Source: Edaphobacter modestus (GTDB lineage Bacteria > Acidobacteriota > Terriglobia > Terriglobales > Acidobacteriaceae). From it: DNA of 64,000 bases. Numbering within the stretch: the first letter of the stretch is position 1; each line of letters starts with the position of its first letter. The DNA is taken from positions 2,480,001 to 2,544,000 of the forward strand of contig NZ_SHKW01000001.1 in the NCBI RefSeq assembly GCF_004217555.1, in the 5' to 3' direction. The translations under genes and the position numbers were made by a program. The notes beneath the pieces were generated by a model that searched no databases, was not told where the DNA came from, and saw only the letters and a program-made list of their open reading frames with translations. This document shows positions 32,908 to 56,632 of the stretch, piece by piece.

Positions 32908-33717
32908 ATGGCCGACAAAGAGAACAGCCCGAATGAAGGCAGGCTGACTAACAAACAGTACATGAAGGAACTTCGACGCCTCCAGGCGGAGCTTTGCAAG
33001 CTTCAGGAATGGGTCAAATACAAGGGACTTCGCGTGATCGTCGTCTTTGAGGGGCGCGATGCCGCAGGCAAAGGAGGGACCATCCGCGCGCTCACCGAAC
33101 GAGTGAGTCCCCGTGTGTTCCGGGTCGAAGCGCTACCTGCTCCCTCTGACCGCGAGAAGACTCAGATGTTCTTACAGCGCTATGTGGAGCGTTTTCCGTC
33201 TGGCGGCGAGATCGTAATCTTCGACCGAAGTTGGTACAACCGAGCCGGCGTAGAGTTCGTGATGGGCTTCTGTACCAAGGAGCAACATCGCATTTTTCTT
33301 GAACAGGCTCCTCAGATAGAGCAGTACATCGTGAATGCCGGCATCGTCCTTATCAAGTACTGGCTGGAAGTGGGTGCTGATGAGCAGGAACGGCGATTCA
33401 AAGCACGAATCGCCGATCCGCTGCGGCAATGGAAGCTGAGCCCGATGGATCTTGAGTCATTCCGTCGCTGGTATGACTATTCAAGGGCGCGGGATGCCAT
33501 GCTCAAGGCATCCGACAGCAAGCATGCTCCGTGGTTCGTCGTTCGTTCTGATGATAAGAAAAAAGCACGCCTCAACTGTATCGCGCATTTCCTGAGCAAG
33601 ATTCCCTATGGAAAGGTTCCGCGGGAAAAAGTGAAGCTGCCACCCCGGGATAGCCGCAAACGATATGACGATCAGACCCCGCTGAAGAAGATGCACTACA
33701 TTCCCGAGATTTATTGA
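32908..33717 (+). CDS. ppk2: Polyphosphate kinase 2 (PPK2)
   Basis: 269 residues, the size of single-domain PPK2. Walker A is GRDAAGKGG at about 49-57 (K55) and Walker B is FDRSWYNRAGVE at about 105-116, with the lid region KARIADPLRQWKLSPMD. The enzyme transfers phosphate from polyphosphate to nucleoside di- or monophosphates, or the reverse, in the cytoplasm. It is the first gene of the + strand run leading to the ATP synthase and phosphoketolase genes, which suggests a role in emergency nucleotide phosphorylation. Whether it prefers ADP, GDP or AMP cannot be told by eye. Confidence 0.92.
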   Translation: MADKENSPNEGRLTNKQYMKELRRLQAELCKLQEWVKYKGLRVIVVFEGRDAAGKGGTIRALTERVSPRVFRVEALPAPSDREKTQMFLQRYVERFPSGGEIVIFDRSWYNRAGVEFVMGFCTKEQHRIFLEQAPQIEQYIVNAGIVLIKYWLEVGADEQERRFKARIADPLRQWKLSPMDLESFRRWYDYSRARDAMLKASDSKHAPWFVVRSDDKKKARLNCIAHFLSKIPYGKVPREKVKLPPRDSRKRYDDQTPLKKMHYIPEIY

Positions 33718-33826
33718 CAGTGCTCGCACAAAATGTCTTGAACAGACGCACAATGATTTGCTTTATCGCTCGGGAAATGAGGTTCATATCTCGCGGTGCG
33801 GTTCGGCAGGTGCTTAGGAGAAATGA

Positions 33827-36527: not shown

Positions 36528-36537
36528 CCCCCAATAC

Positions 36538-36915
36538 GCAGAACGATATGCGCCTTCAGACCGATGTACCACTGGTTGCCTTGCGCGTCTACGGAACTTG
36601 CAGATCGTCGCCTCATCCGACGCGATGCCCGGCCCAGGTCCCACGACTGCAAGCCGCCGCAGCGCGGGCGACTCGTACAGCGCCACTTCCGCGCCCGGAT
36701 CGCTCAGGTTGAACCACTGCTCACAAAGTAAATCCGCAGCATGATCCCCCACCCACAGGCGGATGCCCATTCTCTCCCTTCGGATAGTGCGGCTCCACCA
36801 GCGCTTCCAGCTCTGCCCAGGGCACCACCCGATCCATCTCTTCCAGAAATAACTCCCGCCGAAATTTCCTTGCGTACTTCTCGAGACTCCTCTGGCACGC
36901 CAATGTCTGTCGCAC
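36538..36915 (-). pseudogene. IS5-family transposase remnant
   Basis: Read on the - strand in several frames: RQTLACQRSLEKYARKF and LFLEEMDRVVPWAELEALVEPHYPK, then MLRIYF, then EQWFNLSDPGAEVALYESPALRRL and SDEATICKFR, then a jump to GNQWYIGLKAHI. These are consecutive parts of IS5-type transposases, but with at least two frameshifts and an internal deletion near 36590. The remnant begins 11 bp after the stop of the small barrel gene. No intact end was identified. Confidence 0.8.
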
Positions 36916-37136
36916 GTGCTTCCTTCCCCCGATCACAACCTTATTCGCACAGACTGGATAGTGGAGTTCTTCAGAAGTTCCTAGCAATTTTGCCAGTTTA
37001 CAGGCACTAGGTATGACCGCTACTATTTGCGCGTTGATCCTAGGAAGATTGTCTCCTCTGCGAGGCACAATCTTTCGTAGCGCGATGAGCGAGTGCGTTC
37101 CATTGATCGCGGATGAATATATAAGCAGGAGAACTG

Positions 37137-38111
37137 ATGCGCTCGCTCCCTTCGAACTCGAGCACTTCACTGCTACTATTCTGCTTCGCGGCTGTGCTCA
37201 TCAGTCTGACCGCTAGCATCGCGCTGGCAATTGACACTGGATCGAAGTTTGCCTCAGACACCACCGCACAACATGAGGCACCTGAACAGACGTCTGAGCC
37301 GGAAGAACATGGCTTATCTCAAAAAGCAGTGGAAATCGCACGCTTCCATAATTTCCCGATCACTAATTCCATGGTTCTGAGTTGGGTCGTGGCTTTGAGC
37401 CTGATCGTATTTGCTCAGTTTGCTACAAGAAACATGCAGCAGGTTCCTGCCGGCGCGCAGAACTTTCTTGAATGGATTGTTGAAGGCCTGTACAAGTTTA
37501 TGGCCGGAATTATTGGTTCTCATTTAGTGAGCCGGACATTCTGGTTCTTTGCATCCATCTTTATCTTTATTCTCTCTGCCAATTGGATGGGACTTATTCC
37601 AGGAATAGGAACGATTGGGTGGGGCCATCCGACCTCTCATGGCTTCAAGATCGATCAACCCTTACTTCGCGGCACTAATGCTGACGTCAATATGACGTTT
37701 GCGATGGCCCTGGTCTACTTTGCCTGCTGGCTTGTCTGGGCTTTTCAAGAAATTGGTGCGCGTGGATTTATCAAGGAGTTGTTTGCGCCCAAGGGCGAGA
37801 GCACTGGTGCGCTGAAGCTGCTGATGGGTATTGTGTTCTTTGTGGCTGGCTGTCTAGAGGTCGTCTCAATTTTATTCAGGCCAGTCTCTCTAAGCTTTCG
37901 CCTCTACGGCAACGTATATGCCGGGGAGAACCTATTGGAAGCAATGGTTAGGCTTGTCCCTGGTTTTGGCTGGTTGGTGGCCATTCCGTTTTATTTCATG
38001 GAAGTGCTGATGGGTCTAGTTCAGGCGCTAGTCTTCATGTTACTGACTGCGGTCTTCACGATGCTGATTTGCCAGCATGAGGCTAAGGCACCGGAGGCCG
38101 TACACGGTTGA
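37137..38111 (+). CDS. atpB: ATP synthase F0 subunit a
   Basis: 324 residues, long for this subunit because of an extra N-terminal hydrophobic helix and an acidic linker (about residues 1-70) before the usual fold. The essential arginine is about R255 in SLSFRLYGN, followed by a NVYAGE segment and the terminal helices. Subunit a forms the half-channels that pass ions to the c-ring. First of eight contiguous genes of a full F-type ATP synthase. The start is the ATG after AGCAGGAGAACTG. Confidence 0.93.
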   Translation: MRSLPSNSSTSLLLFCFAAVLISLTASIALAIDTGSKFASDTTAQHEAPEQTSEPEEHGLSQKAVEIARFHNFPITNSMVLSWVVALSLIVFAQFATRNMQQVPAGAQNFLEWIVEGLYKFMAGIIGSHLVSRTFWFFASIFIFILSANWMGLIPGIGTIGWGHPTSHGFKIDQPLLRGTNADVNMTFAMALVYFACWLVWAFQEIGARGFIKELFAPKGESTGALKLLMGIVFFVAGCLEVVSILFRPVSLSFRLYGNVYAGENLLEAMVRLVPGFGWLVAIPFYFMEVLMGLVQALVFMLLTAVFTMLICQHEAKAPEAVHG

Positions 38112-38420: not shown

Positions 38421-38966
38421 ATGAATACTCTAGTTTTGCTGGCACAAACGAACAGTGGAGAACAGATCCAAAAGATCGCCACGGACTTTGGCGTGGACTG
38501 GCCACATCTAGTTGCCCAGATCATCAGCTTTTCCATTGTCTGTATTCTTCTTCAACGCTTTGCCTATAAACCTATCCTCAGGGCGCTCGAGGAACGACGT
38601 CAAAAAATCGCCCAAGGGTTGGATGATGCAAAGAAAATATCGGAAGAACTGGCGCAGACCGAGATGCAGCGCCGGGAGATATTGAGGCAGGCCGACGCGC
38701 AGGCGGCCAAACTGATTGAGGAAGCACGTGCTGCAGCTGGCCGGGTGAAAGAAGCGGAAACGCAGAAGGCCATAGCCGAGGCGCAACAGATCGTTGCCAA
38801 GTCGCGCGAAGCGACTGCACAAGACTATGCCCGAATGATCGAAGAGCTAAAGAAAGAAGTCGGCCGATTGGTTGTGAAGACAACCGCCAATGTCACTGGC
38901 AAGATTCTCACGCCAGAAGATCAGCGGCGCCTGTCCGAGGAGACAGCAAGAAATTTAGCCGCTTAA
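38421..38966 (+). CDS. atpF: ATP synthase F0 subunit b
   Basis: 181 residues. One membrane helix (about 30-48, HLVAQIISFSIVCILLQ) with the conserved RFAYKPIL after it, then a long charged coiled coil with the family's A/K/E/Q-rich pattern. It forms the peripheral stalk linking F0 to F1 through delta. Only one b gene is present (no b'), so a homodimer is expected. It lies 56 bp downstream of atpE. Confidence 0.9.
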   Translation: MNTLVLLAQTNSGEQIQKIATDFGVDWPHLVAQIISFSIVCILLQRFAYKPILRALEERRQKIAQGLDDAKKISEELAQTEMQRREILRQADAQAAKLIEEARAAAGRVKEAETQKAIAEAQQIVAKSREATAQDYARMIEELKKEVGRLVVKTTANVTGKILTPEDQRRLSEETARNLAA

Positions 38967-38987
38967 CGAGGCCAAGAAGCGATCGTG

Positions 38988-39422
38988 ATGACTAAGAAAC
39001 AATCCGCGCGTGAAGCTAAGCAAATGTTCCGTTTGTGCGTCGTCAACGGGGTGTTGGATGAGGCGCGTGTGCGCCAGGTACTGCAAGCGGTGCTCCAGTC
39101 CCGACGGCGCGGTTATTTGTTGTTGCTGGAGGACTTTCAGCGGTTGGTCAAACTTGACCATGATCAGCATATGGCAAAAGTCGAGAGCGCCGTGCTAATG
39201 CCCGCTGATTTGCAGGCCAATGTACGCAGCGGATTGACGAGCGCGTACGGTTCAGGGATAACGATTGCGTTCTCCGTCAACCCGGCATTGATTGGAGGGA
39301 TGCGCATTCAAGTGGGTAGCGATGTCTACGATGGGAGCGTGCAGTCTGGGTTAGATGCATTGCGGAGAAGTTTCGGGATTGAAGGAACGAACGGAAGAAA
39401 CACTGAGATCGTATCCCCATAA
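38988..39422 (+). CDS. atpH: ATP synthase F1 subunit delta
   Basis: 144 residues from the ATG at 38988 (a GTG precedes it directly). Shorter than the usual 175-180 residues, mainly in the N-terminal helical domain. The identity rests on the C-terminal signature NPALIGGMRIQVGSDVYDGSV, diagnostic for the delta/OSCP C-domain, and its place between b and alpha. It joins the peripheral stalk to the top of the alpha/beta hexamer. The N-terminal half is strongly diverged. Confidence 0.85.
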   Translation: MTKKQSAREAKQMFRLCVVNGVLDEARVRQVLQAVLQSRRRGYLLLLEDFQRLVKLDHDQHMAKVESAVLMPADLQANVRSGLTSAYGSGITIAFSVNPALIGGMRIQVGSDVYDGSVQSGLDALRRSFGIEGTNGRNTEIVSP

Positions 39423-39454: not shown

Positions 39455-40987
39455 ATGGCTGACATACTGAAGGAACTCGAGGATCAAATTGCCGGCGTCA
39501 AGGCAACAACCGCCAAGCAGAATGTGGGTATCATCCGTGAAGTTGGTGATGGTGTAGCCCGGGTGGAAGGACTTACAGATGCCATGCTCAATGAGATGCT
39601 CGACATGGGTCATGGAATCACCGGCTTAGCGCTAAACCTGGAAGAGACCGAGGTCGGAGTCATTATTCTAGGCGACTATACCCGGCTTGAAGAGGGAGAT
39701 CAGGTTCGCACAACGGGAAAATTGTTGCAGGTACCAGTTGGTATGGGGTTGTTGGGGCGTGTTGTAAATACGCTTGGGGAGCCCGTGGATGGGAAAGGTC
39801 CAGTGAAGAGCACCGTTGCCTATCCGGCTGAGAAAATGGCTCCCGGCATCATCCGGCGTCGCCCTGTCAGCCAACCTGTGCAAACCGGCATCATAGCTAT
39901 CGATGCGATGATTCCGATCGGACGCGGCCAGCGTGAATTGATCATCGGTGATCGGTCGACAGGCAAGACGACGATATGCATCGATACCATCATCAGCCAA
40001 GCTCGCCTTAACCGGGCCGCTGAAGCCGCAGCCGACAAAGACTATCGCCCTCTCTACTGCATCTATGTAGCGATTGGTCAGAAACAATCGAACATTGCCC
40101 GTATCATTACTGTCCTTGAAGACGCTGGTGCAATGCAGAACACCATCATCGTTGCATCTCCTGCTTCGGATTCCGCTACCAATCAGTATCTTGCCCCATT
40201 TGCGGGTGCTGCGATGGGCGAGTGGTTCATGGACAATGGTATGGACGCATTAATCATCTTTGATGATCTGTCCAAACACGCGGTGGCTTACCGACAGATT
40301 TCACTTGTATTGAAGCGGCCCTCCGGGCGTGAAGCGTATCCGGGTGATGTGTTTTATCTCCACAGTCGATTGCTCGAACGCGCGGCACGCGTAGGAGAAA
40401 AATATGGCAACGGTTCACTCACAGCCCTGCCCATTATTGAAACGCAGGCGGGTGACGTTTCCGCCTATATTCCTACCAACGTCATTTCGATCACCGATGG
40501 GCAGATCTATTTGGAAACAGATTTGTTTTATCAGGGAGTTCGTCCGGCCATTTCGGTTGGCCTCTCCGTGTCCCGCGTGGGTTCAGCCGCGCAGCTCAAG
40601 GCCGTGAAGCAAGTTGCCGGACAGCTCAAAGGGGACCTCGCCCAATTTAGGGAATTGGCGGCCTTCGCACAGTTCGGTTCGGACCTCGATGCTAAGACGC
40701 AGGCGCAGATCGACCGAGGCAAGCGTCTCGTCGAACTCTTCAAGCAATCACAGTACAGCCCGATTTCCGTTGAAATCCAGGTCGCTGTGATTTGGGCGGC
40801 CCAAAATGGGTACTTGGATGATGTGCCTGTGGAGCGGGTCAAGGAGTTCCAAGCCAAGTTGACTGAGTTTCTGAACACGCGCAAGGCTGAGTTGCTGCAG
40901 AGTATTGCCACCGAAAAGACGCTATCTCAAGTCTTGATCGGGGAGTTGAAGGCAGCGGCTGATCAGTTCAAAGAGACCTGGAGATGA
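39455..40987 (+). CDS. atpA: ATP synthase F1 subunit alpha
   Basis: 510 residues, full length. The non-catalytic nucleotide site has Walker A GDRSTGKT (about 165-172), and [48 protein letters not shown] and the [15 protein letters not shown] region are all present. With beta it forms the F1 hexamer. It follows delta by 32 bp in the standard gene order. Confidence 0.97.
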
Positions 40988-41067: not shown

Positions 41068-41934
41068 ATGAGCAGCCCACACGAATTGCGACGACGAATC
41101 CGCTCCATTAGCGGTACTGCGCAGATCACCAAAGCGATGGAGATGGTGGCGGCTTCGAAGATGCGCAAGGCCCAGGAAAGTGCTCTTGCCGGACGGCCTT
41201 TCGTTTACCGACTATACCGAATCCAGAGAGAAGCGACGACGCGGATGGGAGATTTTAGCCATCCTCTGCTCGAAGTGCGCGAAGTCCGTAAACGCGCGAT
41301 CATACTCATTGGCGCGGATAAGGGCTTGTGCGGAGCGCTTAACAGCAATTTGTTCCGCCTGGCCGCTGAGTTCGATACTCAATCAACACTTTTCATCACC
41401 GCGGGGAAGGTAGCTGCGCAGTTCATTGCCCAGACTCATCGACAACTGGTGGCGGAGTTTGCTTATGGGGATACACCGCGGTTCACCGAGGCAAGGGCAA
41501 TTGCCGCCTATGCCCGCGACCTCTTTTTGAAGCGAGAAGTGGATCAGGTGCAGGTCATTGCTACTCGTTTCATCAACACACTCACTCAGCAGCCGCTCTG
41601 TCTTGAATATCTTCCTGTGGCTGAAATCAAGGGACTGAAAATTCCGGGCACAAGGCCGGAAGAGGAACTTATAGCGGATACCACAGAGGCTTTGTTTGAG
41701 CCGAGCCCGGAGGTTGTAATGGGCTATCTGCTTTTGCAATATCTCGATATTTATATCTATCAGGTTTTGCTGAACGCTAAAGCCAGTGAGCAAAGCGCGC
41801 GCATGGTGTCGATGAAGAATGCCACAGATAGTGCTGAAACCCTCATCAACGATTTGACTCTCGAATATAACAAACTGCGGCAAGGCAATATCACGCAAGA
41901 GCTGCTGGAGATTGCCGGCGGACAGTCCGATTAA
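41068..41934 (+). CDS. atpG: ATP synthase F1 subunit gamma
   Basis: 288 residues. It starts with the family pattern ELRRRIRSISGTAQITKAMEMVAASKMRKAQ, has DKGLCGALNSNLF in the middle, and ends with MVSMKNATDSAETLINDLTLEYNKLRQ, the two long helices of the rotor shaft. It couples c-ring rotation to catalysis in beta. The gap of 80 bp after atpA is the widest among the F1 genes except the one before ackA. Confidence 0.95.
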   Translation: MSSPHELRRRIRSISGTAQITKAMEMVAASKMRKAQESALAGRPFVYRLYRIQREATTRMGDFSHPLLEVREVRKRAIILIGADKGLCGALNSNLFRLAAEFDTQSTLFITAGKVAAQFIAQTHRQLVAEFAYGDTPRFTEARAIAAYARDLFLKREVDQVQVIATRFINTLTQQPLCLEYLPVAEIKGLKIPGTRPEEELIADTTEALFEPSPEVVMGYLLLQYLDIYIYQVLLNAKASEQSARMVSMKNATDSAETLINDLTLEYNKLRQGNITQELLEIAGGQSD

Positions 41935-41976: not shown

Positions 41977-43383
<1,407 letters not shown>

Positions 43384-43436: not shown

Positions 43437-43850
43437 ATGGCCAACACAACAAAACTCGAAATTGTAACACCGGAAGCCCTGGTTTACTCCGCGGAAGTGG
43501 ACATGGTCTCGATTCCCTCGGTAGAGGGTCGGCTAGGAGTCCTCCCTCACCACGTGCGCTTGATGGCTCAACTAGTGCCAGGCGAAATGGTTGTGCATAA
43601 AAGCGGGCACATGGAGTTTCTAGCTGTCGGTGAAGGGCTTGTCGAGGTCACCGGCTCCAATGTCTTTGTCGTAACTAACATGGCAATTGCTGTGGACAAA
43701 ATCGATGAAGCGAAGGTCGAAGAAGCCCGCCAGCGCGCCGCTGCCCGACTCCGCGAGAAAATTTCTTCCGAGGAAGTGGCTTCTGTCAACGCATCTCTGG
43801 CCCGCTCACTGGCGCAACTGCGAGTCAAACGACGCCATCACCGCGAGTGA
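43437..43850 (+). CDS. atpC: ATP synthase F1 subunit epsilon
   Basis: 137 residues. The N-terminal beta sandwich is typical (KLEIVTPEALVYSAEVDMVSIPSVEGRLGVLPHHVRLMAQL), followed by the C-terminal helical hairpin with KVEEARQRAAARLREK. It sits on the rotor and can inhibit hydrolysis. It closes the ATP synthase gene set. Between it and the acetate kinase start lie 201 bp whose frame is open in phase with ackA from 43929, but no recognised domain was found there. Confidence 0.93.
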   Translation: MANTTKLEIVTPEALVYSAEVDMVSIPSVEGRLGVLPHHVRLMAQLVPGEMVVHKSGHMEFLAVGEGLVEVTGSNVFVVTNMAIAVDKIDEAKVEEARQRAAARLREKISSEEVASVNASLARSLAQLRVKRRHHRE

Positions 43851-44051
43851 ATCCAAGATGTCGATCCACTCCACGAAGGGGGCGAGGTCGGGTACTTACT
43901 CTATGCGAACGAGCACTGCACGGTTAAGATGTACGTTCTCGGCTGGAAATGGCCGTACTGGACACCGGGATCTTGTGGTCGAGCCTGGTCGCGCCGGATC
44001 AATGCCCAAACTCATGGCGCTACACCAACACGACCAGTCGGTAACGTGCAG

Positions 44052-45317
44052 ATGAACGTTCTCGTACTCAACTCGGGAAGCTCCAGTCTAAAGTTCCAGC
44101 TGATCGCCACGGATCTTGGCCGGATCACCGAGAACAAGGATGAGCGCTTGTGCCGCGGACAAGTCGAGCAGATAGGAGGAGAAGCGATCGTCACGGTCCA
44201 CACGCGAAGTGGCACCAGACAGAAGTCTACAGCTTCACTTTTCGATATTTCGAGGTCGTTGGAATACCTGGTACGGTGGATCGCGTCAGACGAATCAGAA
44301 ATAATGGAAGTCCGGTCTCCGTCCGATATCCATGCCGTTGGACACCGCGTGGTTCACGGGGGCGAATTGTTCACCGAATCCACCGTGATCACTGACGAGG
44401 TGTTAAAGGGAATCGAGGAATGCATCGATTTAGCTCCCCTGCACAACCCCAACAACATCAAGGGTATTTTGGCGTCGCGGCAAGTATTCGGTCCAAAACT
44501 GCCTCAGGTCGCAGTTTTTGACACCTCCTTCCATCATTCGATCCCAGAGCATGCATACCTCTACGCCCTGCCCTATCACTTGTATAAACGCCACCACATT
44601 CGTCGTTACGGATTTCATGGAACGTCTCACCGATATGTGGCCGACCGATACAGGGCCTTGCGTGCGGTAACCGAAGAACAGACTCATATCATCACGCTCC
44701 ACCTGGGCAATGGCTGCTCTGCTACGGCCATTCGAGGTGGCCGCTCTGTGGATACTTCGATGGGCATGACGCCGCTGGAGGGTCTGGTAATGGGGACCCG
44801 CTCTGGCGATATCGATCCAGCCGTCGTGAACCTCATCGCCAGGAAAGAAGGCCTGTCCACACACGAAGTGGATGCTCTACTCAACAACCAGTCCGGATTG
44901 CTGGGCATCTCGGGGCTGACAAACGATATGCGTGTGTTGCTGCAGGAATCAAGAGATCAAGATCACCGCCGGGCACAGCTTGCCATTGAGGTCTTTTGTT
45001 ACCGCGCAAGAAAATACATTGGTGCATTTCTTGCGTGCATGGGCGCCGCGGATGCGATTGTCTTCACCGGAGGGATCGGAGAGAACTCGCCCGACATCCG
45101 CGCCCGGATCTGCAATGGGCTTGAATGGGCTGGTTTGAGGCTGGACGACAGCAGGAACAAGCGGATGGTCGGATTAGAAGGGCAGATCAGTTGTGATGAT
45201 TCGAGCCTGCATGCATTCGTAATTCCGACCGACGAGGAGCTCCTGATCGCACGCGATACCGTCCGTTGCATTCTGAGTGAGCGGTCGCCGAGAGTCGAGG
45301 AACTGCGGATCCAATGA
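44052..45317 (+). CDS. ackA: Acetate kinase
   Basis: 421 residues from the ATG at 44052; an in-frame ATG at 43929 is rejected because the family begins with the MNVLVLNSGSSSLKF seen here. HRVVHGG, YGFHGTSH, the phosphate loop HLGNGCSATAI and FTGGIGENS supply the acetokinase active site. It makes ATP and acetate from acetyl phosphate, or the reverse. With the phosphoketolase 1.5 kb downstream it completes substrate-level phosphorylation from sugar phosphates. The ribosome site is weak, perhaps limiting expression or indicating coupling to atpC. Confidence 0.95.
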   Translation: MNVLVLNSGSSSLKFQLIATDLGRITENKDERLCRGQVEQIGGEAIVTVHTRSGTRQKSTASLFDISRSLEYLVRWIASDESEIMEVRSPSDIHAVGHRVVHGGELFTESTVITDEVLKGIEECIDLAPLHNPNNIKGILASRQVFGPKLPQVAVFDTSFHHSIPEHAYLYALPYHLYKRHHIRRYGFHGTSHRYVADRYRALRAVTEEQTHIITLHLGNGCSATAIRGGRSVDTSMGMTPLEGLVMGTRSGDIDPAVVNLIARKEGLSTHEVDALLNNQSGLLGISGLTNDMRVLLQESRDQDHRRAQLAIEVFCYRARKYIGAFLACMGAADAIVFTGGIGENSPDIRARICNGLEWAGLRLDDSRNKRMVGLEGQISCDDSSLHAFVIPTDEELLIARDTVRCILSERSPRVEELRIQ

Positions 45318-45412
45318 GGATCATTTGCGCTCATTTTCTTCGGAGGCGTCGATGACCACGTTCGGTGGCTTTCGGAATGGCATTCGTCGACAACACTAGG
45401 GGGAACGAACCG

Positions 45413-46042
45413 ATGAAAAACGAACTGCCGATCGTTTATTTGGCGCGGCACGGTGAAACCGCATGGAGCCTGTCGGGGCAACACACCGGCCTAACCGACC
45501 TCCCTCTCACCAGGCAGGGCGAGCGCACCGCCCGCCAACTCGGGGAACGTCTCAAGGGACTGATTTTCGCAAAAGTATTCACCAGCCCATTGCAGCGAGC
45601 GCGGCAGACTTGTGAACTGTCAGGGTTTGGCGCGGTGGCTGAGATCGATCCTGACCTCGTCGAGTGGAACTATGGCAAATATGAAGGCCGCCGGGGTGAC
45701 GAGATCCGCGCGGAGCGCCCAGACTGGAACTTGTTCCGCGACGGCTGCCCTGGAGGCGAAACGCCTCAGCAAGTCAGCGCCCGTGCGGACAGCGTTGTCA
45801 GCCGAGTGCGCGCGATTCCTGCAAACGTACTACTTTTCACAAGCGGGCATTTCATGCGGATATTGGCGTCGCGTTGGCTCGGGCTCGAACCGACAGCCAA
45901 CAGCAGATATTTCATGTTGAGTACGGCGAGCCTCAGTGCCGTGGGCTACGAAAACAATATTTCCCGGCCGGTGATCCGATTCTGGAACGACACTCGCCAT
46001 GTGGACATTGAGCCCGAGATAGCGGCGCACGCCAGTCCGTGA
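45413..46042 (+). CDS. Histidine phosphatase family protein (phosphoglycerate-mutase-like)
   Basis: 209 residues from the ATG at 45413, preceded by AGGGGGA. The phosphohistidine motif ARHGET holds H13; the second histidine is in FTSGHFMR, and the acidic VEWNYGKYEG segment is typical of the branch-1 phosphatase fold. It may act on a sugar phosphate or phosphoglycerate; specificity is unknown. A broken second copy lies at 49410-49698 immediately before glycogen phosphorylase, and this intact copy is itself followed by a fragment of glycogen phosphorylase. Confidence 0.88.
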   Translation: MKNELPIVYLARHGETAWSLSGQHTGLTDLPLTRQGERTARQLGERLKGLIFAKVFTSPLQRARQTCELSGFGAVAEIDPDLVEWNYGKYEGRRGDEIRAERPDWNLFRDGCPGGETPQQVSARADSVVSRVRAIPANVLLFTSGHFMRILASRWLGLEPTANSRYFMLSTASLSAVGYENNISRPVIRFWNDTRHVDIEPEIAAHASP

Positions 46043-46097: not shown

Positions 46098-46240
46098 ATG
46101 AGTACAAAGGGCATCGCGGCAAGCGGGGCAAAGGCAGCGGAGGAAGATCCGTCCAAACTTCTCAAACAATACGGGTGCGACCCCATTCAGTTTAGGGGGA
46201 CCGACGGGCTTTACGAACGGCATCTTCACTTCGACAATGC
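46098..46240 (+). pseudogene. 5' fragment of glycogen phosphorylase (first copy)
   Basis: An AAGGAAGA site and ATG are followed by MSTKGI, LLKQYGCDPIQF, GTDGLYERHLHFDN, nearly matching the first 50 residues of the intact phosphorylase at 49747. The spacer and preceding phosphatase end match too. After about 46240 the similarity stops and no phosphorylase core follows. The frame remains open to 46685 but encodes nothing recognisable. The remaining 46241-46823 contains no gene I can support. Confidence 0.8.
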
Positions 46241-46823
46241 GATCGACGAGAAGCAGCTCGCTAACTACCAAAGATCACCAGATCCGGCCTCGCCGACCGA
46301 TGCGGCGCGGCTGTCGCTGGTGCGCTCTGGTCTCGGCTCTTTGACTGGAAGGAAGCGCTCGCCATTGGCGCCTAGTATTTTTGACAGTTGCTCTCCTTCC
46401 AGAACTCCTTCATCCTTCTTTCACCACTGTATCGAAAAATCTCGTACCTCAAGTGTCGCTTGTGGTAGTATGCCGGCCAGAGATTTTCTAACCTTCGTCG
46501 GTTGCACGATCCTCAGGCACATCGTGGCGCCTCGGCGATCGGAGAAGGCGACCAGCGGCCCAACGAGACGGTACAAGGGCGGGGCCAGAGAACGGTTGTG
46601 TCGGGTCAAAGTACTCGTAAACCGAGGCGGGAAACAGCTAAGTGATTGGGTTTGGGTACCTACCTCAAGGCAGCTTAGCCGCTGACCGCTCACCTGTCGC
46701 AATCCGAATAACATCGAGAATGCATGGGCCGAATGAGTTTGGACAACCACCAACAGAGACGGTCATTTAGCACGTGCGTCGCTCTTGGCTGGTAACCGCA
46801 GGCAGCAACGATTTGGAGGAGTC

Positions 46824-49409: not shown

Positions 49410-49698
49410 ATGGGTGAAAGACTTCCGATTGGTTACCTGGCTCACGACGGCGAGACTTCACGGAGTCTGCCCCTTCAGTACACCAGAGCAGTGAGATCAA
49501 AGCCAGGTCAGTGCCCGCGCGGACAGACGGTGGCTTGGGCTCGAACCGACTGCCAACAGCGGGCATGTCATGTTGAAAACGGGGACCCGTAGTGCGTTGG
49601 GCTACCAAGACGATCCGTACCGGCCGGTGATCCGACTCTGGAACGATACTCACCACGTGGATATTGACTCCGACGTAGCGGTGCACGCCGTTCCGTGA
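49410..49698 (+). pseudogene. Histidine phosphatase remnant (second copy)
   Basis: GGAGGAG and ATG lead into MGERLPIGYLAHDGETSRSLPLQYT, a diverged version of the intact phosphatase N-terminus in which the catalytic RHGET has become HDGET. Nearly the whole middle is missing. In another frame the C-terminus resumes (GLEPTANSG, RPVIRLWNDTHHVDID) and stops at 49698. Internal deletion, frameshift and loss of the arginine of the phosphohistidine motif show it is dead. It directly precedes the intact phosphorylase. Confidence 0.85.
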
Positions 49699-49746: not shown

Positions 49747-52254
49747 ATGAGCACAAAGGGCATCATCTCAGTCGACGAACAATGGACGAAGGCAGATGGG
49801 GCAAAGCTTCTAAAACAGTATGGGTGTGGCCCCATTCCGTTCATGGGGGCGGACGGACTTTATGACCGGCATCTGCTGTTTGACAACATAAAGGATCTCG
49901 CGGCGATACCTGGCAGGGAGCGTTACGAGGCATTTGCGCGATCTGTGCGCGATGTTCTCTCGCAGCGATGGTTACTCACGGGAAAGACATACGAACGCGA
50001 GAATCCGAAGCGTGTTTACTACCTGTCAATGGAGTTTCTCCTCGGTCGCTCGTCGGCCAGTAATGTCATCAACCTTCTGCTCGATCCGTTTGTGGCACAA
50101 ACTGCGAAGCAGAAAGATATTGATTTGCTCTGTTTACTTGAGCAAGAACCGGACGCGGGCCTGGGAAACGGGGGACTTGGGCGGCTGGCAGCATGCTTCC
50201 TCGACTCCATGGCTACCCTGCAGCTTCCTGCCATGGGCTACGGATTGCGTTACGAGTTCGGCATCTTCAAGCAATCCATAGAGGACGGCTGGCAGCACGA
50301 ACAAGGAGATAACTGGCTGCGTCACCCGGATCCCTGGGAGGTGGCCCGTCCCGATGAGGCGGTAGAGCTAAAGTTGAATTGCTCATTCGAATTGCAGGGA
50401 GGGTCATTCCGGGCAGTACCTGGCCGGCCCTCCACTTTGCTTGGCATCCCGTATGACCGGCCGGTTGTGGGCTATGGCGGAAAGACCATCAATACACTGC
50501 GTCTCTGGGCGGCAACCGCATCGAACTCCTTCGACTTCCAGGAATTCAGCAGTGGAGACTTCGCCAGTGCGCTGGCCGATACTCTCGCAGCCGGGTCTCT
50601 AACCCGTGTTCTTTATCCAGACGACTCAACGAGCAAGGGACAAGGCTTGCGCTTCGTGCAGGAGTATTTTCTCGTGGCATGTTCGCTGGCCGACCTTGTC
50701 CGGCGCTTCCGGAAGACCAATGCCGACTGGAGTGAGCTTGCGGACAAAGTCGCTATCCAACTTAACGACACGCATCCAGCCATGGCGGTGCCCGAACTGC
50801 TGCGGATCCTGCTCGACGAAGCGCATCTTGAATGGGACCAGGCCTGGGACCTAACACGAAAAGCTCTGGCGTACACCAATCACACGCTACTGCCAGAAGC
50901 TCTCGAGAAATGGCCCTTATATTGGTTCGAAACGATGCTTCCTCGGCACCTGGAAATCATATTGGAGATCAACCGACGTTTGCTTGATGATGCTCGAGAC
51001 CGATTCCCAGGCGATGAGAAAAGAATTGAGCGAGTCAGCATTGTCGAAGAAGGCGCGGCGCGAAAGATCCGCATGGCGAACCTGGCGATCGTAGGTTCTC
51101 ACGCGACGAATGGTGTAGCGGCGATTCACTCCGAGCTACTGCGGACCACCACGGTCAAAGAACTTGCCGAGTTGTTTCCCGAGCGTTTCAATAACAAGAC
51201 AAATGGCGTCACGCCACGACGGTGGTTGCTGCTCGCGAATCCTGCCCTGGCTCACGCGATCACGGGAGCCATTGGTAATGTTTGGGTTACTGACCTGGAC
51301 AAGCTGAATAACCTCAAGCCGTTTGCAGAGAACGCCTCTTTTCGTGCTGCCTTCCGCGACGCAAAGCACGAGGCCAAATCTCAATTTGCTAACTGGCTCA
51401 AGACGACCTCTGGACAGGTGATCGATCCGAACAGCATCTTCGATGTCCACGTCAAACGCATTCACGAATACAAGCGGCAACTGCTTAACGCGTTGCGCGT
51501 CGCAGTGCTTTATAACCGCCTGCGAGAGAATCCGGATCTTCAGATGATCCCACGCACATTTTTCTTCGCCGGCAAGGCTGCACCGGCCTATCGGTTGGCC
51601 AAGTTGATCATCAAATTGATCAATAACCTTGCTGGCACCATTGATGGTGACCCGGTAGTGCGCGGCCGTCTTAAGATAGTGTTTCTGCCCGAGTACTGCG
51701 TTTCCCTCGCAGAACATCTTATTCCGGCCAGCGACGTTTCCAATCAGATCTCCACGGCTGGCTACGAAGCCAGCGGCACCAGCAACATGAAATTCATGAT
51801 GAATGGCGCCCTCACGATCGGAACGCGCGACGGCGCGACCATCGAAATGGCTGAAGCAGCAGGCGAGGAAAACTTCTTCATGTTTGGACTGACGGCGGAT
51901 CAGGTGGTCAGCAGCCGCGGATGGTACAACCCGTACTGGCACTATGAAAATGAGCCGGAGACTCGCGCGGCTCTAGACCTGATCTTCTCTGATTACCTCA
52001 GCCGCAATGAGCCGGGGACTTTTGCGCCACTCCGCGACACCCTCCTGACCCATGGAGACTTCTACATGCACCTGGCGGACTTGAAGTCTTATCTTGATGC
52101 AGACCGTCGGCTGGTGGAGCTGTACGCCCAACCCGACGACTGGGCGCGAAAAGCGATTCTGAATATTGCAAGTTCGGGGAGGTTTTCCAGTGACCGGACG
52201 ATCAACGAGTACGCGATCGATATATGGAACGTAAAGCCATGTCCGGTACCGTAA
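49747..52254 (+). CDS. glgP: Glycogen/alpha-glucan phosphorylase
   Basis: 835 residues, full length for GT35. YYLSMEFLLGR, EPDAGLGNGGLGRLAACFLDS, NDTHPAMAVPELLRIL, the KRIHEYKRQLLN segment and the pyridoxal-phosphate lysine at about K682 (EASGTSNMKFMMNG) are all present. It releases glucose 1-phosphate from glycogen with inorganic phosphate. An AAGGAAGA site precedes the ATG. GlgX begins 24 bp downstream, so the pair can dismantle branched glycogen and feed the phosphoketolase route. Confidence 0.97.
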   Translation: MSTKGIISVDEQWTKADGAKLLKQYGCGPIPFMGADGLYDRHLLFDNIKDLAAIPGRERYEAFARSVRDVLSQRWLLTGKTYERENPKRVYYLSMEFLLGRSSASNVINLLLDPFVAQTAKQKDIDLLCLLEQEPDAGLGNGGLGRLAACFLDSMATLQLPAMGYGLRYEFGIFKQSIEDGWQHEQGDNWLRHPDPWEVARPDEAVELKLNCSFELQGGSFRAVPGRPSTLLGIPYDRPVVGYGGKTINTLRLWAATASNSFDFQEFSSGDFASALADTLAAGSLTRVLYPDDSTSKGQGLRFVQEYFLVACSLADLVRRFRKTNADWSELADKVAIQLNDTHPAMAVPELLRILLDEAHLEWDQAWDLTRKALAYTNHTLLPEALEKWPLYWFETMLPRHLEIILEINRRLLDDARDRFPGDEKRIERVSIVEEGAARKIRMANLAIVGSHATNGVAAIHSELLRTTTVKELAELFPERFNNKTNGVTPRRWLLLANPALAHAITGAIGNVWVTDLDKLNNLKPFAENASFRAAFRDAKHEAKSQFANWLKTTSGQVIDPNSIFDVHVKRIHEYKRQLLNALRVAVLYNRLRENPDLQMIPRTFFFAGKAAPAYRLAKLIIKLINNLAGTIDGDPVVRGRLKIVFLPEYCVSLAEHLIPASDVSNQISTAGYEASGTSNMKFMMNGALTIGTRDGATIEMAEAAGEENFFMFGLTADQVVSSRGWYNPYWHYENEPETRAALDLIFSDYLSRNEPGTFAPLRDTLLTHGDFYMHLADLKSYLDADRRLVELYAQPDDWARKAILNIASSGRFSSDRTINEYAIDIWNVKPCPVP

Positions 52255-52278: not shown

Positions 52279-54450
52279 ATGTCGCAAACCCGCAGTGCAG
52301 AAGACGGCATTCTTGGTGACGATATGCTCAGGACTGACCCGCAACGAAGTCATCAACTGGATATAGTTCCCGCCGCGAGTGTGGGGCGAAGCGCTCCTCT
52401 TGGCGCCACGGTCACCAGCGGTGGCGTGAATTTCAGTTTGTACTCACGCGATGCTTCAGGTATCGAATTGCTTTTCTTCGATCACGAAGATGACAGACAG
52501 CCCTCGCACGTGATCCGGTTAGATCAAACCGTCAATCGCACGTATCACTACTGGCATGTCTTCGTTCCGTGCTTGCAGGCGGGGCAGCTGTATGGGTACC
52601 GGGTTCACGGGCCACTCGATCCCGCCAAAGGGATGCGTTTTGACCCGACGAAGGTCTTGCTTGACCCGTATGGTCGCGGAGTTGCTGTTCCTCGAAACTA
52701 CTCGCGTGAAGCGGCGCGACAAAAAGGCGACAATGCCGCCACGGCGATGAAGAGCGTGGTCGTGGATCCAGGTTTGTACGACTGGGAAGGCGACACACCA
52801 CTCAGACGGCCATCGTCGCAGACGATCGTCTACGAGATGCATGTAAAGGGATTTACGCGGCATCCGAGCTCCGGCGTCCCGGAAGCGACACGCGGCACTT
52901 TCCGCGGACTCATTGAGAAGATCCCCTATCTCCAGGACTTAGGCATCTCAGCTGTCGAACTGCTTCCCGTCTTTCAGTTTGATCCGCAGGATTGCCCACC
53001 AGGTCGCGTCAACTATTGGGGTTATGCGCCCGTGTCTTTTTTTGCACCGCACCAGGCATACAGCTCTCGGCAAGATCCCATGGGCCCCGTGGACGAGTTT
53101 CGCGATATGGTCAAGTCTCTGCACCGAGCTGGGATTGAGGTGATCTTAGACGTCGTCTTCAATCACACAGCAGAAGGTGATCATCTTGGACCAACATTAA
53201 GCTTTCGAGGGCTGGAGAATAACGCCTACTATCTTTTGGAGCCCGATCGGTCGCATTACGCCAACTACAGCGGAACAGGAAATACGCTCAACGCCAATCA
53301 CCCGATCGTGCGCCGCATGATCGTGGATAGTCTGCGCCATTGGGTCGAAGAAATGCACGTGGATGGTTTCCGTTTCGATCTCGCATCGATCCTCGCCCGC
53401 GATTCCGCTGGCCAAGTGATGTCCAGTCCTCCTGTGCTTTGGGATATCGAGTCGGATCCAACGCTGGCCGGCACAAAGATCATTGCTGAAGCCTGGGATG
53501 CTGCCGGACTTTACCAGGTGGGCAGCTTTGTTGGGGATAGCTGGAAGGAATGGAACGGCCGCTTTCGCGATGACGTAAGAAGTTTCATTCGTGGCGAGGA
53601 CGGCTCGTTGCGGCGCTTCGCTGACCGCTTGCTAGGCAGCCACGAGATTTATCGGTACAAAGAACGTGAGGCAGAGCAGAGCGTGAACTTTGTCGCTTGT
53701 CACGACGGATTTACGCTGAATGACCTGGTCTCTTACAACCAGAAGCACAACGAGGCCAATGGTGAGGAAAACCGTGACGGCGGCGATGACAATCGAAGCT
53801 GGAACTGTGGTGCCGAAGGCCCAACTTCGGATCCGGAGATTGAGCGACTCCGAAACCGCCAAGTGAAGAATTTCATGACCGTCATGCTGCTCTCTCTTGG
53901 CCTTCCCATGTTCTTGATGGGCGATGAAGTCCGGCGAACGCAGCAGGGCAACAATAACGCTTACTGTCAGGACAGCGAAGCGAATTGGCTCGATTGGTCT
54001 TTGCTCGTGAAACACGCGGATTTTCATCGCTTTGTGAAGCTACTCATCGCGAGACGATTACTGCGGGACATTGGCCCCGAGCGCCAGCGGATGACCTTGA
54101 TTCAGTTAATTCGCCAGGGGATTAGGGGCTGGCATGGAGTAAAACTGGACCAGCCGGACTGGAGCAGTTACTCGCATAGTGTCGCCCTTAGTGCCGAGAT
54201 ATCAAAAGAAGCCCTACTGTTTCACTTCATCTTCAATTCGTACTGGGAGCCTCTTGACTTCGAACTTCCGAGGACAGGAATGGGCAAGCGAGTCTCATGG
54301 AGGCGATGGATCGACACGTTTCAAGAGGCACCCGAAGACATCGTGCCGTGGCAAGAAGCACCCATTGTTCCTGAGTACACCTATCGAGCCGGCCCTCGGT
54401 CTGTGGTCGTTCTTTGGGCGAGCGTTGGTGAGGGACCGCAGCACACCTAA
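52279..54450 (+). CDS. glgX: Glycogen debranching enzyme GlgX (GH13, isoamylase-type)
   Basis: 723 residues. An N-terminal CBM48-like domain (LGATVTSGGVNFSLYSRDA) precedes the GH13 barrel with DVVFNHTAEGD, the nucleophile at about D367 (GFRFDLAS), the acid/base at about E404 (IIAEAWDA) and the transition-state aspartate at about D476 (ACHDGFTLND). It hydrolyses alpha-1,6 branch points of phosphorylase limit dextrin. It is 24 bp behind glgP and 79 bp ahead of transketolase in the same direction. Confidence 0.95.
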   Translation: MSQTRSAEDGILGDDMLRTDPQRSHQLDIVPAASVGRSAPLGATVTSGGVNFSLYSRDASGIELLFFDHEDDRQPSHVIRLDQTVNRTYHYWHVFVPCLQAGQLYGYRVHGPLDPAKGMRFDPTKVLLDPYGRGVAVPRNYSREAARQKGDNAATAMKSVVVDPGLYDWEGDTPLRRPSSQTIVYEMHVKGFTRHPSSGVPEATRGTFRGLIEKIPYLQDLGISAVELLPVFQFDPQDCPPGRVNYWGYAPVSFFAPHQAYSSRQDPMGPVDEFRDMVKSLHRAGIEVILDVVFNHTAEGDHLGPTLSFRGLENNAYYLLEPDRSHYANYSGTGNTLNANHPIVRRMIVDSLRHWVEEMHVDGFRFDLASILARDSAGQVMSSPPVLWDIESDPTLAGTKIIAEAWDAAGLYQVGSFVGDSWKEWNGRFRDDVRSFIRGEDGSLRRFADRLLGSHEIYRYKEREAEQSVNFVACHDGFTLNDLVSYNQKHNEANGEENRDGGDDNRSWNCGAEGPTSDPEIERLRNRQVKNFMTVMLLSLGLPMFLMGDEVRRTQQGNNNAYCQDSEANWLDWSLLVKHADFHRFVKLLIARRLLRDIGPERQRMTLIQLIRQGIRGWHGVKLDQPDWSSYSHSVALSAEISKEALLFHFIFNSYWEPLDFELPRTGMGKRVSWRRWIDTFQEAPEDIVPWQEAPIVPEYTYRAGPRSVVVLWASVGEGPQHT

Positions 54451-54529
54451 CGAAAACGGATGGTACGGCCGCATGACCTGCATCACCGAGTAGGGATTTC
54501 CGTCCTACGGCAACAGAAGGGAGTTTAAA

Positions 54530-56632
54530 ATGAGTGCTGCAACAGTTTCCCCCACGTCGCCCGCGATTCAAAGGATGGATCTGACTAGTATCAACACGAT
54601 CCGTACCCTCTCTATAGATGGCGTGCAGGCCGCCAATTCCGGACATCCTGGGACTCCCATGGCGATGGCGCCGGTGGCGTATTGCTTGTGGCAGCAGTTC
54701 CTTCGCTTCGATCCCGGAGATCCGGTATGGCCTAATCGCGATCGGTTCGTGTTATCGATAGGGCACGCCTCCATGCTGCTCTATTCGATGCTTCACTTGA
54801 CCGAAGTCCGAGCCGTTAGTAAGGACTATGAGATTCTCGGCGAACCGTCGGTTCCACTGGATTCCATCAAGTCATTTCGGCAGTTGGATAGTCGCTGCCC
54901 AGGACATCCGGAGTACCGCTGGACATCGGGCGTGGAGACCACGACTGGGCCGCTTGGCCAAGGCGTCGCCACCAGCGTTGGCATTGCCATGGCCAGGCAA
55001 TGGCTGGCCGCGCGTTACAACTGCCCGGGCTTCGACAGTCTCTTCGACTTCAACGTCTATGCACTTTGCGGAGACGGCTGCATGATGGAAGGCATCTCTG
55101 GCGAGGCCGCTTCCCTTGCAGGGCACCTGCAACTTTCGAATCTTTGCTGGATTTACGATAACAACCGCATCACGATCGAAGGCCAAACTTCTCTGGCCTT
55201 TAGCGAAGACGTAGCCACGCGTTTTATCGGCTACGGGTGGAACGTTACCCGGGTTGGCGACGCAAACGATCTCGATATGCTGGCCCGCGCGTTTCGAACT
55301 TTTCTGAGTACCAAGGACAGGCCGACGCTGATTATCGTGGACAGCCACATCGGATACGGTGCTCCTAACAAACAGGATACGAGCGGGGCCCACGGCGAAC
55401 CTCTGGGCGAGGAGGAGGTCCGGCTCGCCAAACGGAACTACGGCTGGCCGGAAGATAAGAAATTCTACGTGCCGGAGGGCGTCTACGATCACTTCCGTCA
55501 AGGCATCGGAAAGCGGGGCAAGCAACTACGCGACGATTGGTTCGCGCGAATCGATGAGTATCGCAAGCAGTACCCGGACCTCGCCGAAGAACTGTATCGC
55601 ATGCAACACCGCCAGCTTCCGGAAGGGTGGGACCGAGACCTTCCCGAATTTCCCGCTGACCCGAAGGGCTTGGCGACTCGCGAGTCCTCGGCTAAAGTGC
55701 TGAATGCTGCCGCCAACAACATTCCGTGGTTGATTGGAGGCTCTGCAGACCTCGCACCCTCCACCAAGACCCGCATCACACAAGAGGGCGCCGGTGATTT
55801 CTCGGCGGAGTCCTATGCTGGACGAAATTTGCACTTCGGGATCCGTGAGCACGCCATGGGGGCCCTACTTAACGGACTCAGTTTGGTAAAGATCCGACCC
55901 TTCGGGTCGGGCTTTTTCATCTTTGTCGACTACATGCGGGGATCACTCCGTTTGAGCGCCTTGATGGAACTCCCGGTAATATACGTGTTTACTCACGACT
56001 CCATCGGAGTCGGCGAGGATGGCCCCACTCATCAGCCCATCGAACAGCTTGCTCACATGCGCTCCACGCCTGGGCTGATCATGATCCGGCCCGCTGATGC
56101 GAATGAGGTGAGAGAGGCGTGGAAGGTAATACTGCAACTACATCACGAGCCGGCGGTGCTTGTACTTTCTCGCCAAGCCGTGCCCACAATCGACCGGGAG
56201 AAGTACGCAGCAGCCTCGGGTTTGGCACACGGAGCCTACGTTCTGGCAGATGCCCCAGGCGCCGACCCAGAGGTCATCCTCATCGGCACGGGCAGCGAGG
56301 TTGCGCTCTGCCTGCAAGCCTACGAGCAATTGAGCAAGGAGGGAGTGCGAGCGCGTGTCGTTAGTATGCCGTCTTGGGAATTGTTCGATGACCAGGAAGG
56401 AAGCTACCGAGAGTCTGTTCTGCCTCGACATGTGAAAGCCCGAGTGTCGGTGGAACAGGCATCCGACTTTGGCTGGAGCAAATACACCGGTTGCGAGGGG
56501 CACAACGTTTGTATTGAAACGTTTGGAGCCTCAGCACCTCTTAAGCAGCTGATGAAGAAATTCGGATTCAGTACAGAGGAAATTGTGGCTGCCGCGAAGA
56601 AGCAGATTGCGCAGCACCAAATGCGGAGTTGA
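54530..56632 (+). CDS. tkt: Transketolase
   Basis: 700 residues, slightly longer than most. The thiamine-diphosphate half begins with NSGHPGTPM and has GPLGQGVATSVG and GDGCMMEGISGEA; the pyrimidine-binding half has FGIREHAMGA and THDSIGVGEDGPTHQP; the C-terminal domain follows. It interconverts sedoheptulose, xylulose, ribose, erythrose and fructose phosphates. Beside a phosphoketolase it regenerates pentose and hexose phosphates for repeated cleavage. GAAGGGAG precedes the ATG. It is the last intact gene of the + strand island. Confidence 0.96.
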   Translation: MSAATVSPTSPAIQRMDLTSINTIRTLSIDGVQAANSGHPGTPMAMAPVAYCLWQQFLRFDPGDPVWPNRDRFVLSIGHASMLLYSMLHLTEVRAVSKDYEILGEPSVPLDSIKSFRQLDSRCPGHPEYRWTSGVETTTGPLGQGVATSVGIAMARQWLAARYNCPGFDSLFDFNVYALCGDGCMMEGISGEAASLAGHLQLSNLCWIYDNNRITIEGQTSLAFSEDVATRFIGYGWNVTRVGDANDLDMLARAFRTFLSTKDRPTLIIVDSHIGYGAPNKQDTSGAHGEPLGEEEVRLAKRNYGWPEDKKFYVPEGVYDHFRQGIGKRGKQLRDDWFARIDEYRKQYPDLAEELYRMQHRQLPEGWDRDLPEFPADPKGLATRESSAKVLNAAANNIPWLIGGSADLAPSTKTRITQEGAGDFSAESYAGRNLHFGIREHAMGALLNGLSLVKIRPFGSGFFIFVDYMRGSLRLSALMELPVIYVFTHDSIGVGEDGPTHQPIEQLAHMRSTPGLIMIRPADANEVREAWKVILQLHHEPAVLVLSRQAVPTIDREKYAAASGLAHGAYVLADAPGADPEVILIGTGSEVALCLQAYEQLSKEGVRARVVSMPSWELFDDQEGSYRESVLPRHVKARVSVEQASDFGWSKYTGCEGHNVCIETFGASAPLKQLMKKFGFSTEEIVAAAKKQIAQHQMRS

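Follow-up and report, generated by a model that had tools for sequence, protein, structure and literature searches.

A second, Verrucomicrobiota-type ATP synthase operon in Edaphobacter modestus and its recurrent glycogen, phosphoketolase and polyphosphate neighbours

Introduction

ATP synthase genes are usually regarded as core genes that are inherited vertically. In the genome of Edaphobacter modestus (assembly GCF_004217555.1; 7.45 Mb, 8 contigs, contamination estimate 6.38), an atp operon stands among genes for polyphosphate use, glycogen breakdown, phosphoketolase and acetate kinase. What kind of ATP synthase is this, and do its neighbours belong with it? The stretch analysed, termed the window, comprises 64,000 nt of contig NZ_SHKW01000001.1 (positions 2,480,001–2,544,000), and coordinates are window positions unless a contig is named. 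Positions 32908–56632, here called the island, hold ppk2, sulP, a membrane protein gene with weak VIT similarity, atpBEFHAGDC, ackA, a histidine phosphatase gene (hisP), xfp, glgP, glgX and tkt in succession, all on the + strand (Table 1). Gene identities were taken from NCBIfam and Pfam profile searches of the window open reading frames (ORFs), listed from 100 aa upwards.

In Acidobacteriota and Methylomirabilota, ATP synthases of the island type have repeatedly been joined by glycogen/maltodextrin, phosphoketolase, acetate kinase or polyphosphate genes. This co-location is observed directly, and the shared function that it suggests is discussed conditionally below. It is proposed, with somewhat more confidence than doubt, that the locus is a horizontally assembled accessory energy-metabolism island around a Verrucomicrobiota-type ATP synthase, most likely used when an electron acceptor is in short supply.

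The island encodes a second ATP synthase of Verrucomicrobiota type

Genomes and loci are denoted by codes (G, genome; L, locus or stretch). G393 and G399 (L010) contain an identical contig, as do G173 and G432 (L071), and each pair is treated as one genome. In both AtpA trees, twelve copies of the island type form one clade, with support of 100/100 in the first tree and 100/99 in a fuller tree from which five long or redundant rows were omitted. Verrucomicrobiota enzymes surround this clade in the fuller tree, and both trees cross the phylum border. The canonical AtpA of the host, G110, G231, G398, G435 and (first tree only) G475 fall outside the island clade. The root inside the clade is unstable, with four Methylomirabilota rows placed inside in the first tree but outside, with G479 inside, in the fuller one. 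These placements show the predicted product of the island atp operon to be a second ATP synthase, whose clade lies within Verrucomicrobiota-type enzymes.

Full-length AtpA of the island type occurs in at least six of 397 genomes of the order, a lower bound that counts full-length copies and excludes the contig-edge copy of G173/G432. The five copies besides that of the host are at 85–89% identity, and the next among the matches listed are at 57–61%. A sample of 297 genomes of the phylum, which overlaps with these 397, has AtpA over E 1e-200 in the host genome alone. Among Methylomirabilota, five of 95 genomes have AtpA at 80–83%, and the other matches listed reach at most 67% (partial). AtpA was also sought in 45 of the genomes that contain xfp relatives (80 loci in all). 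G398, G399 and G435 have it full length (82–88%); G432 has its contig-edge copy (82%, residues 255–510) and G400, a Verrucomicrobiota metagenome-assembled genome, a copy at 68%. AtpA relatives over E 1e-200 are present in 112 of 327 Verrucomicrobiota genomes (59–80%). Among plasmids, no carrier of the gene set was found: AtpA matches in the 15 places listed are at 55–59%, one of 559 records falls in the 60–80% band, and the best plasmid Xfp is at 76.7%.

The host genome has another ATP synthase at C1:2.20 Mb and another xfp–ackA pair at C1:4.15 Mb, whose xfp is 71% and whose ackA, the sole other ackA found in the genome, 40% identical to the island copies. Another tkt (48%) is open over 667 aa, an intact ORF that ruled out a supposed TAA stop codon in this gene, and the other near-full glgP (48%) lies at the very end of contig 3 (C3:7–2202). 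The presence of these divergent second copies indicates that the island duplicates functions already in the cell. A glgP fragment (56%) was also seen on host contig 2 (C2:131289–131504). At the canonical atp locus, ORFs of 155 and 241 aa, taken as b-type subunits, and a 179-aa delta precede atpA. As no a or c gene was recognised within 3.2 kb upstream of canonical atpA, this operon, in contrast to that of the island, may be split.

The eight island subunits are encoded in a single operon-like run with intergenic gaps of 18–80 bp, and ackA follows atpC after 78 bp. Catalytic P-loops, the a-subunit Arg and the c-subunit Glu, motifs with established functional roles in F-type enzymes, are all present, the SLSFRL motif of atpB being presumably the holder of the arginine. 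In Na+-type c subunits, Ser or Thr follows the Glu (compare atpE in Table 1). In PMC11738941, a c subunit in which one Na+-site residue is missing is assigned to the H+ type.

A full-length delta subunit was not found in the island, where the match of atpH to TIGR01145 starts at profile position 58 of 172 and scores below the cut-off. Clade members that could be read have deltas of 130–145 aa, versus 178–182 aa at seven readable canonical-type loci. Since the other seven subunits fit an F-type ATP synthase, the short delta is taken as a subunit variant. Its use as a hallmark of the island clade was dropped: the delta of Verrucomicrobiota genome G400 (157 aa) starts at the same point, the other Verrucomicrobiota deltas being known from partial alignments only. 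Identity with the N-ATPase, the alternate F1F0 ATPase, was rejected both on profile scores below cut-off (TIGR03324, 569.3 bits vs 750.5; TIGR03305, 551.2 vs 752) and on the atpBEFHAGDC gene order of the island.

Metabolic genes recur around the second ATP synthase

Neighbourhoods were compared by tblastn (E 1e-15) with 17 carbon and PPK2 gene queries, over at most 20 kb per side where the stretch allowed. Flanks were short at several loci, clade and canonical alike, and the Verrucomicrobiota outgroup G400 was omitted from the count of 13 clade loci. At least one gene of the set (glycogen, pentose-phosphate, phosphoketolase, acetate kinase or PPK2) lies near 10 of 13 clade loci, versus none of the eight canonical atp loci of carriers (p = 0.001), and at least five set genes lie near 6 of 13. 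Most of the queries came from the host and G231 loci, and G475 nearly duplicates G435; with these three loci removed, at least one set gene remains at 7/10 clade loci versus 0/8 canonical loci (p = 0.004). With the canonical loci as control, chance adjacency is rejected; the grouping is real and it recurs.

In G435 (Methylomirabilota), atpBEFHAGDC-ackA-glgP-glgX-pgm-hisP-xfp run on one strand up to the contig edge at xfp, with 19 bp between atpC and ackA and a 4-alpha-glucanotransferase gene upstream. The near-identical G475 has the same run as far as pgm, where its contig ends. The atp operons of G231 and G110 have as neighbours genes for a LamB porin, a sugar-type MFS carrier, glucokinase, PGI, DUF2090, Rpe, 6PGD, G6PD and 6PGL, among them those that lead from glucose to xylulose 5-phosphate. 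Farther along follow xfp, tkt and transaldolase (PF00923 in G231, 87% identical to that in G110). On the opposite side of the G231 operon lie genes for phosphoglucomutase and 4-alpha-glucanotransferase, glgP, hisP and ackA. PPK2 is encoded near the atp operon in the host, G285, G398 and G479. G073 has ppk2-glgX-glgP-xfp; a sulP fragment (residues 12–65, 67%) adjoins ppk2, and remains of atpD and atpC lie some 9 kb off. To judge from these pieces, the G073 locus is a decayed copy.

The original prediction had proposed a search for conserved neighbourhoods that combine xfp–ackA with a second atp operon, and had named a gene order conserved in no relative as a sign of chance adjacency. The grouping does recur, in both acidobacteria and Methylomirabilota. 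On gene order the answer is divided: the exact order varies among acidobacterial carriers, but the grouping is kept and the core set stands in one directional run in one Methylomirabilota lineage.

Several further observations weigh against a fixed association. With the host, G231 and G475 removed, the comparison for at least five set genes (3/10 vs 0/8) is not significant (p = 0.22). No set gene was found at 3 of the 13 clade loci (G484, G393 and G432), each with at least one short flank, and at four of the 10 positive loci just one set gene was seen, which is PPK2 at three of them and a fragment of a glycosidase gene at the fourth. G086 and G096 have island-type xfp (94% and 85%), yet among the matches listed their AtpA is at canonical level only; xfp of some type is present in 318/397 genomes of the order. 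At ten Verrucomicrobiota atp operons, the sole set gene found was a pgm, 16–20 kb away at one locus. As these relatives are mostly without set neighbours, the ATPase is not inherently tied to the pathway.

A similar kit occurs in another phylum: locus L014, from a Phycisphaerae metagenome-assembled genome, has ppk2, xfp, a glycoside hydrolase (GH) gene, sulP, glgX and glgP in one run, and an RND set besides. In the 22 kb of this locus that were examined, no atp gene was found.

The island was probably assembled from separate parts

Trees of ackA, glgX and glgP, built by a quick method with SH-aLRT support only and with a long-branch warning for glgX, place the carriers' copies in at least three separate lineages for ackA and at least two each for glgX and glgP. 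The three ackA lineages closest to an operon are those of the window, of G231 and of G435/G475. In G395, ackA and one glgX are on a different contig from atp, and in G398 ackA is more than 30 kb from it. The derivation of ackA, glgX and glgP from different lineages suggests that similar sets were assembled more than once. That the same functions recur with different genes is, in what are so far few cases, the strongest indication of a link between the ATPase and its neighbours.

Scars within the island point in the same direction of piecemeal assembly. The first 56 or so codons of the ORF at 46098–46685 belong to a second glgP, and the ORF matches no Pfam or NCBIfam profile. A 34-nt repeat, found at 46082 and 49731 (91% identical), corresponds to the glgP start; together with the 171-nt hisP repeat (Table 1), it brackets xfp. 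The repeats may be read as a joint between an ackA-hisP-glgP block, in the order of G231, and an xfp-hisP-glgP block, in the order of Jettenia. Such a joint of two blocks would mean that the present gene run was pieced together. Furthermore, a 950-bp gap (36187–37136) with a transposase remnant, presumably of the IS5 kind, separates the ppk2-sulP-VIT block from the atp block.

These scars also bear on a rather unlikely explanation, namely that the region is a hot spot that readily gains genes, where an extra ATP synthase and accessory metabolic genes accumulate and hitch-hike with no joint role. The transposase remnant, a transposase gene, the recombination scars and the shuffled gene order among carriers would all be expected of such a region, and unrelated RND efflux genes lie in the same stretch. 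The G+C content is 55.3% at the island and about 59% at two regions elsewhere in the genome, which fits as well, though the flanks on both sides are at 52–57%. A hot spot does not readily account for the recurrence, in two phyla, of like functions next to one ATPase clade when the ackA, glgX and glgP involved are non-orthologous, nor for the lack of any set gene at the canonical atp loci of eight carriers.

Patchy distribution and phylogenetic discord, which are used to recognise genomic islands, are both apparent in the distribution and trees of AtpA. No tRNA gene was found in the window and no integrase among the window proteins scanned, a scan that did not take in every ORF or a search for att sites. 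Consensus scans for promoters and terminators gave no excess of sites over shuffled sequence. Beyond the window, an IS4/5-family transposase domain protein is encoded at 70101–70829, between the glycosidase gene and an oxidase cluster.

Proposed function of the island

When oxygen or another electron acceptor is scarce, GlgX and GlgP would free glucose 1-phosphate, which phosphoglucomutase, encoded in relatives' islands and presumably elsewhere in the host genome, would feed into the pathway. Xfp and Tkt would then produce acetyl phosphate from fructose 6-phosphate or xylulose 5-phosphate, and AckA would use it to yield ATP and acetate; PPK2 could supply extra ATP from polyphosphate. The extra ATP synthase would couple this ATP supply and the proton gradient: it might act as an outward proton pump, as the original prediction had it, or might produce ATP while respiration is slow. 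The route from glycogen to acetyl phosphate had already been drawn from the host genes, and its logic is strengthened because relatives' islands add glucokinase, PGI, G6PD, 6PGL, 6PGD, Rpe, transaldolase, phosphoglucomutase and 4-alpha-glucanotransferase. Phosphate acetyltransferase (Pta) occurs in relatives' islands as well, as do the transaldolase and phosphoglucomutase just named: AckA–Pta is encoded in those of G073, G395 (contig C30) and G398, and also in G086, where it adjoins xfp.

A fermentative, low-oxygen role of the island is plausible, with indirect support from Pta and pyruvate formate-lyase in some relatives' islands. Pyruvate formate-lyase (PFL) is encoded on C30 of G395, and contig C12 of G398 (L164), which carries the second ATP synthase, has a PFL gene that is in two pieces and contains an in-frame stop. 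PFL-like proteins occur in 26/397 genomes of the order: in 3 of 7 carriers, the contig-edge G173 included, versus 23 of 390 others (p = 0.007, uncorrected for kinship). Two points weigh against this reading. PFL was absent from the searched genomes of the host, G231, G110, G432 and five Methylomirabilota carriers. Moreover, a caa3-type oxidase cluster lies 39 kb downstream (82542–90729) and is syntenic in G231 and G110. In the host it comprises genes for COX2 with cytochrome c, COX3, cytochrome c, Rieske protein, cytochrome b/c and CtaG, with the COX1 gene deduced from a match to G231 COX1. With such a cluster nearby, the island need not be fermentative only, and it may be linked to respiration.

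A tentative alternative goes further and holds that the island is a spare respiratory set, in which the extra ATP synthase makes ATP with the downstream oxidase and cytochrome b/c, the sugar genes give electrons and acetate is overflow. The synteny with G231 and G110, both of which also have an NDH-2 gene close by, is consistent with this, as is the presence of AtpA relatives in so many Verrucomicrobiota genomes, whose ordinary synthase this may be. Conversely, COX1 and cytochrome b queries found no match in the examined stretches of the other carriers, and COX1 of the host and G231 (71%) is less alike than their AtpA (85%).

Defence against acid, with the extra ATPase pumping protons in acidic soil and storage polymers as its fuel, is very unlikely. 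The group to which Edaphobacter belongs is typical of acidic soils, and the PPK2 genes near four atp operons would suit such a role. Yet the phosphoketolase route produces acetic acid, and Methylomirabilota are not known to be acidophilic.

A stronger form of the accessory-island proposal is possible but doubtful. It holds that the genes form a self-contained kit, laterally exchanged and several times built from unrelated enzymes in Acidobacteriota and Methylomirabilota, by which aerobes and methane oxidisers survive anoxia with a Verrucomicrobiota-descended ATPase as an ATP-driven proton pump.

A whole atp operon appears to have crossed phyla, accompanied by a substrate-level route to ATP, and its recurrence with these genes in acidobacteria and another phylum suggests a swappable energy kit, perhaps for low oxygen. 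It becomes testable how mainly aerobic soil bacteria hold a proton gradient without oxygen, and whether some reserve a separate ATP synthase for this. AtpA of the island clade offers a marker for finding the same strategy elsewhere.

Gene content of the window

The features are collected in Table 1. The original prediction had described a one-strand succession of the named genes, and its coordinates and strand agree with the ORFs, as do its families with the NCBIfam and Pfam matches. Its 'VIT-like' label holds for some PF01988 similarity, which is a weak, C-terminal match (31.6 bits vs 28.1). The edges 32908..56632 do enclose the named genes, but are too narrow, as genes common to relatives' islands start at about 28.6 kb and extend beyond the window. 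As predicted, genes for phosphoglucomutase, transaldolase and phosphate acetyltransferase were not found among the scanned window ORFs, some short ORFs remaining unscanned. The profile match of ackA begins at residue 41, so that its true start may be later.

Table 1. Features of the Edaphobacter modestus window, in order of position
Feature	Position	Strand	Evidence and remarks
ppk2, polyphosphate kinase 2, 269 aa	32908..33717	+	TIGR03707 353.5 bits, cut-off 301.8; 86% to G073, 70% to Phycisphaerae L014
sulP anion permease, 562 aa	33827..35515	+	TIGR00815 387.6 bits, cut-off 380.45
Membrane protein, weak C-terminal VIT1 similarity, 220 aa	35524..36186	+	PF01988 E 1.8e-7, residues 133–219 only
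Transposase gene remnant	36576..36731	-	PF05598 E 4.3e-6 in ORF 36099–36770; frames broken
atpB, a subunit	37137..38111	+	TIGR01131 over cut-off; motif SLSFRL
atpE, c subunit, 62 aa	38176..38364	+	PF00137; Glu present, Ala next; under 100-aa ORF-list limit, read from sequence
atpF, b subunit	38421..38966	+	TIGR01144 over cut-off
atpH, delta subunit, 145 aa, N-terminally short	38985..39422	+	TIGR01145 47.3 bits, below cut-off 57.5
atpA, alpha subunit	39455..40987	+	TIGR00962 763.6 bits
atpG, gamma subunit	41068..41934	+	TIGR01146 over cut-off
atpD, beta subunit	41980..43383	+	TIGR01039 771.4 bits
atpC, epsilon subunit	43437..43850	+	TIGR01216 over cut-off
ackA, acetate kinase	43929..45317	+	TIGR00016 469.8 bits
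Histidine phosphatase (branch 1; hisP)	45365..46042	+	PF00300; 65% to glgP-adjacent copy in G231, 70% in Jettenia L013
glgP 5' remnant, not an independent gene	46098..46265	+	glgP residues 1–56, 54%; resembles N-terminal parts of glgP from six relatives
xfp, phosphoketolase, 817 aa	46785..49238	+	NF003617 1554.4 bits
Histidine phosphatase 3' remnant, direct repeat of 45872–46042	49528..49698	+	171 nt, 80% identical
glgP, glycogen phosphorylase	49747..52254	+	TIGR02093 1062 bits
glgX, glycogen debranching enzyme	52279..54450	+	TIGR02100 715.9 bits
tkt, transketolase	54530..56632	+	TIGR00232 805 bits; 85% to G231, 89% to G110 copies near xfp
GH63/MGH1-like glycosidase, C-terminal part; gene runs on to 66008	63270..64000	-	Common to G073, Phycisphaerae L014 and G475 (near atp operon)

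Upstream of ppk2, a DUF2950 and DUF3300 tandem (28588–30910, -) is followed by an AI-2E family transporter gene (31069–32172, -). The DUF pair is conserved in the same wider region: a like pair occurs on the contigs that carry the islands of G073 and G398 (57–58%) and in G231 (about 40%). G073 also has a transporter gene of this family, 60% identical to that of the host and about 3 kb from its ppk2. Downstream of tkt lies an RND efflux set of outer membrane factor, pump and adaptor (57385–63115, -); in Phycisphaerae L014, a more distant RND set (about 29–44%) stands before ppk2. At about 10 kb the G+C content drops from 63.5% (1–10000) to 53.5% (10000–28000), and the high-G+C part contains GH39, MFS, enolase-family, NAD-binding and GH3 genes.

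Comparison with known systems

The island operon is like a canonical F-type ATP synthase operon in gene content, order, P-loops, a-subunit motif and c-subunit carboxylate. It differs in being a second copy of Verrucomicrobiota type, in its short delta and in its catabolic neighbours, of which the eight canonical loci have none. Kuenenia is said to have several ATPase gene clusters. The N-ATPase, which spreads laterally, resembles the island in being an extra rotary ATPase with a patchy set of genomes. Its gene order, given in PMC11738941 as beta-epsilon-X-X-a-c-(b delta)-alpha-gamma, differs from the island order of a-c-b-delta-alpha-gamma-beta-epsilon. ProAD, in the same paper, reports two F-ATPases in 78 bacterial genera, and a second F-ATPase is therefore not new by itself.

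Clusters of xfp-hisP-glgP, xfp-ackA or xfp-glgP-glgX in anammox bacteria, Methylococcales, Burkholderiaceae and others hold xfp and glgP relatives in the same gene pairs as the island. In the flanks of the 80 xfp loci (at most 10 kb, often less), no clade-level ATP synthase was found; L041 has atp genes at 47%. The phosphoketolase pathway (bifid shunt or heterofermentative) runs with acetate kinase. The island is like it in having xfp, ackA and tkt together, with tal in relatives' islands, and differs in the coupling to glycogen/maltodextrin breakdown and to a separate ATP synthase. Xfp itself is a phosphoketolase by its family score, with predicted activity on fructose 6-phosphate and xylulose 5-phosphate.

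Respiro-fermentation at nanomolar oxygen has been described in Acidobacterium capsulatum, whose glycogen and acetate genes were raised at 0.1 µmol/l oxygen (PMC11636273, main text). This member of the same phylum fits the low-oxygen role, but it is another organism and uses a Pta route, and the word 'phosphoketolase' is absent from that main text. In Methylomirabilota, xfp is listed for a genome in PMC10989891. Among the papers listed in searches of open-access literature, a scope that mostly lacks subscription journals, no title or abstract opening describes an atp operon combined with genes for phosphoketolase and glycogen use. The parts of the island are known, and their recurrent combination on a laterally moved ATP synthase appears to be new.

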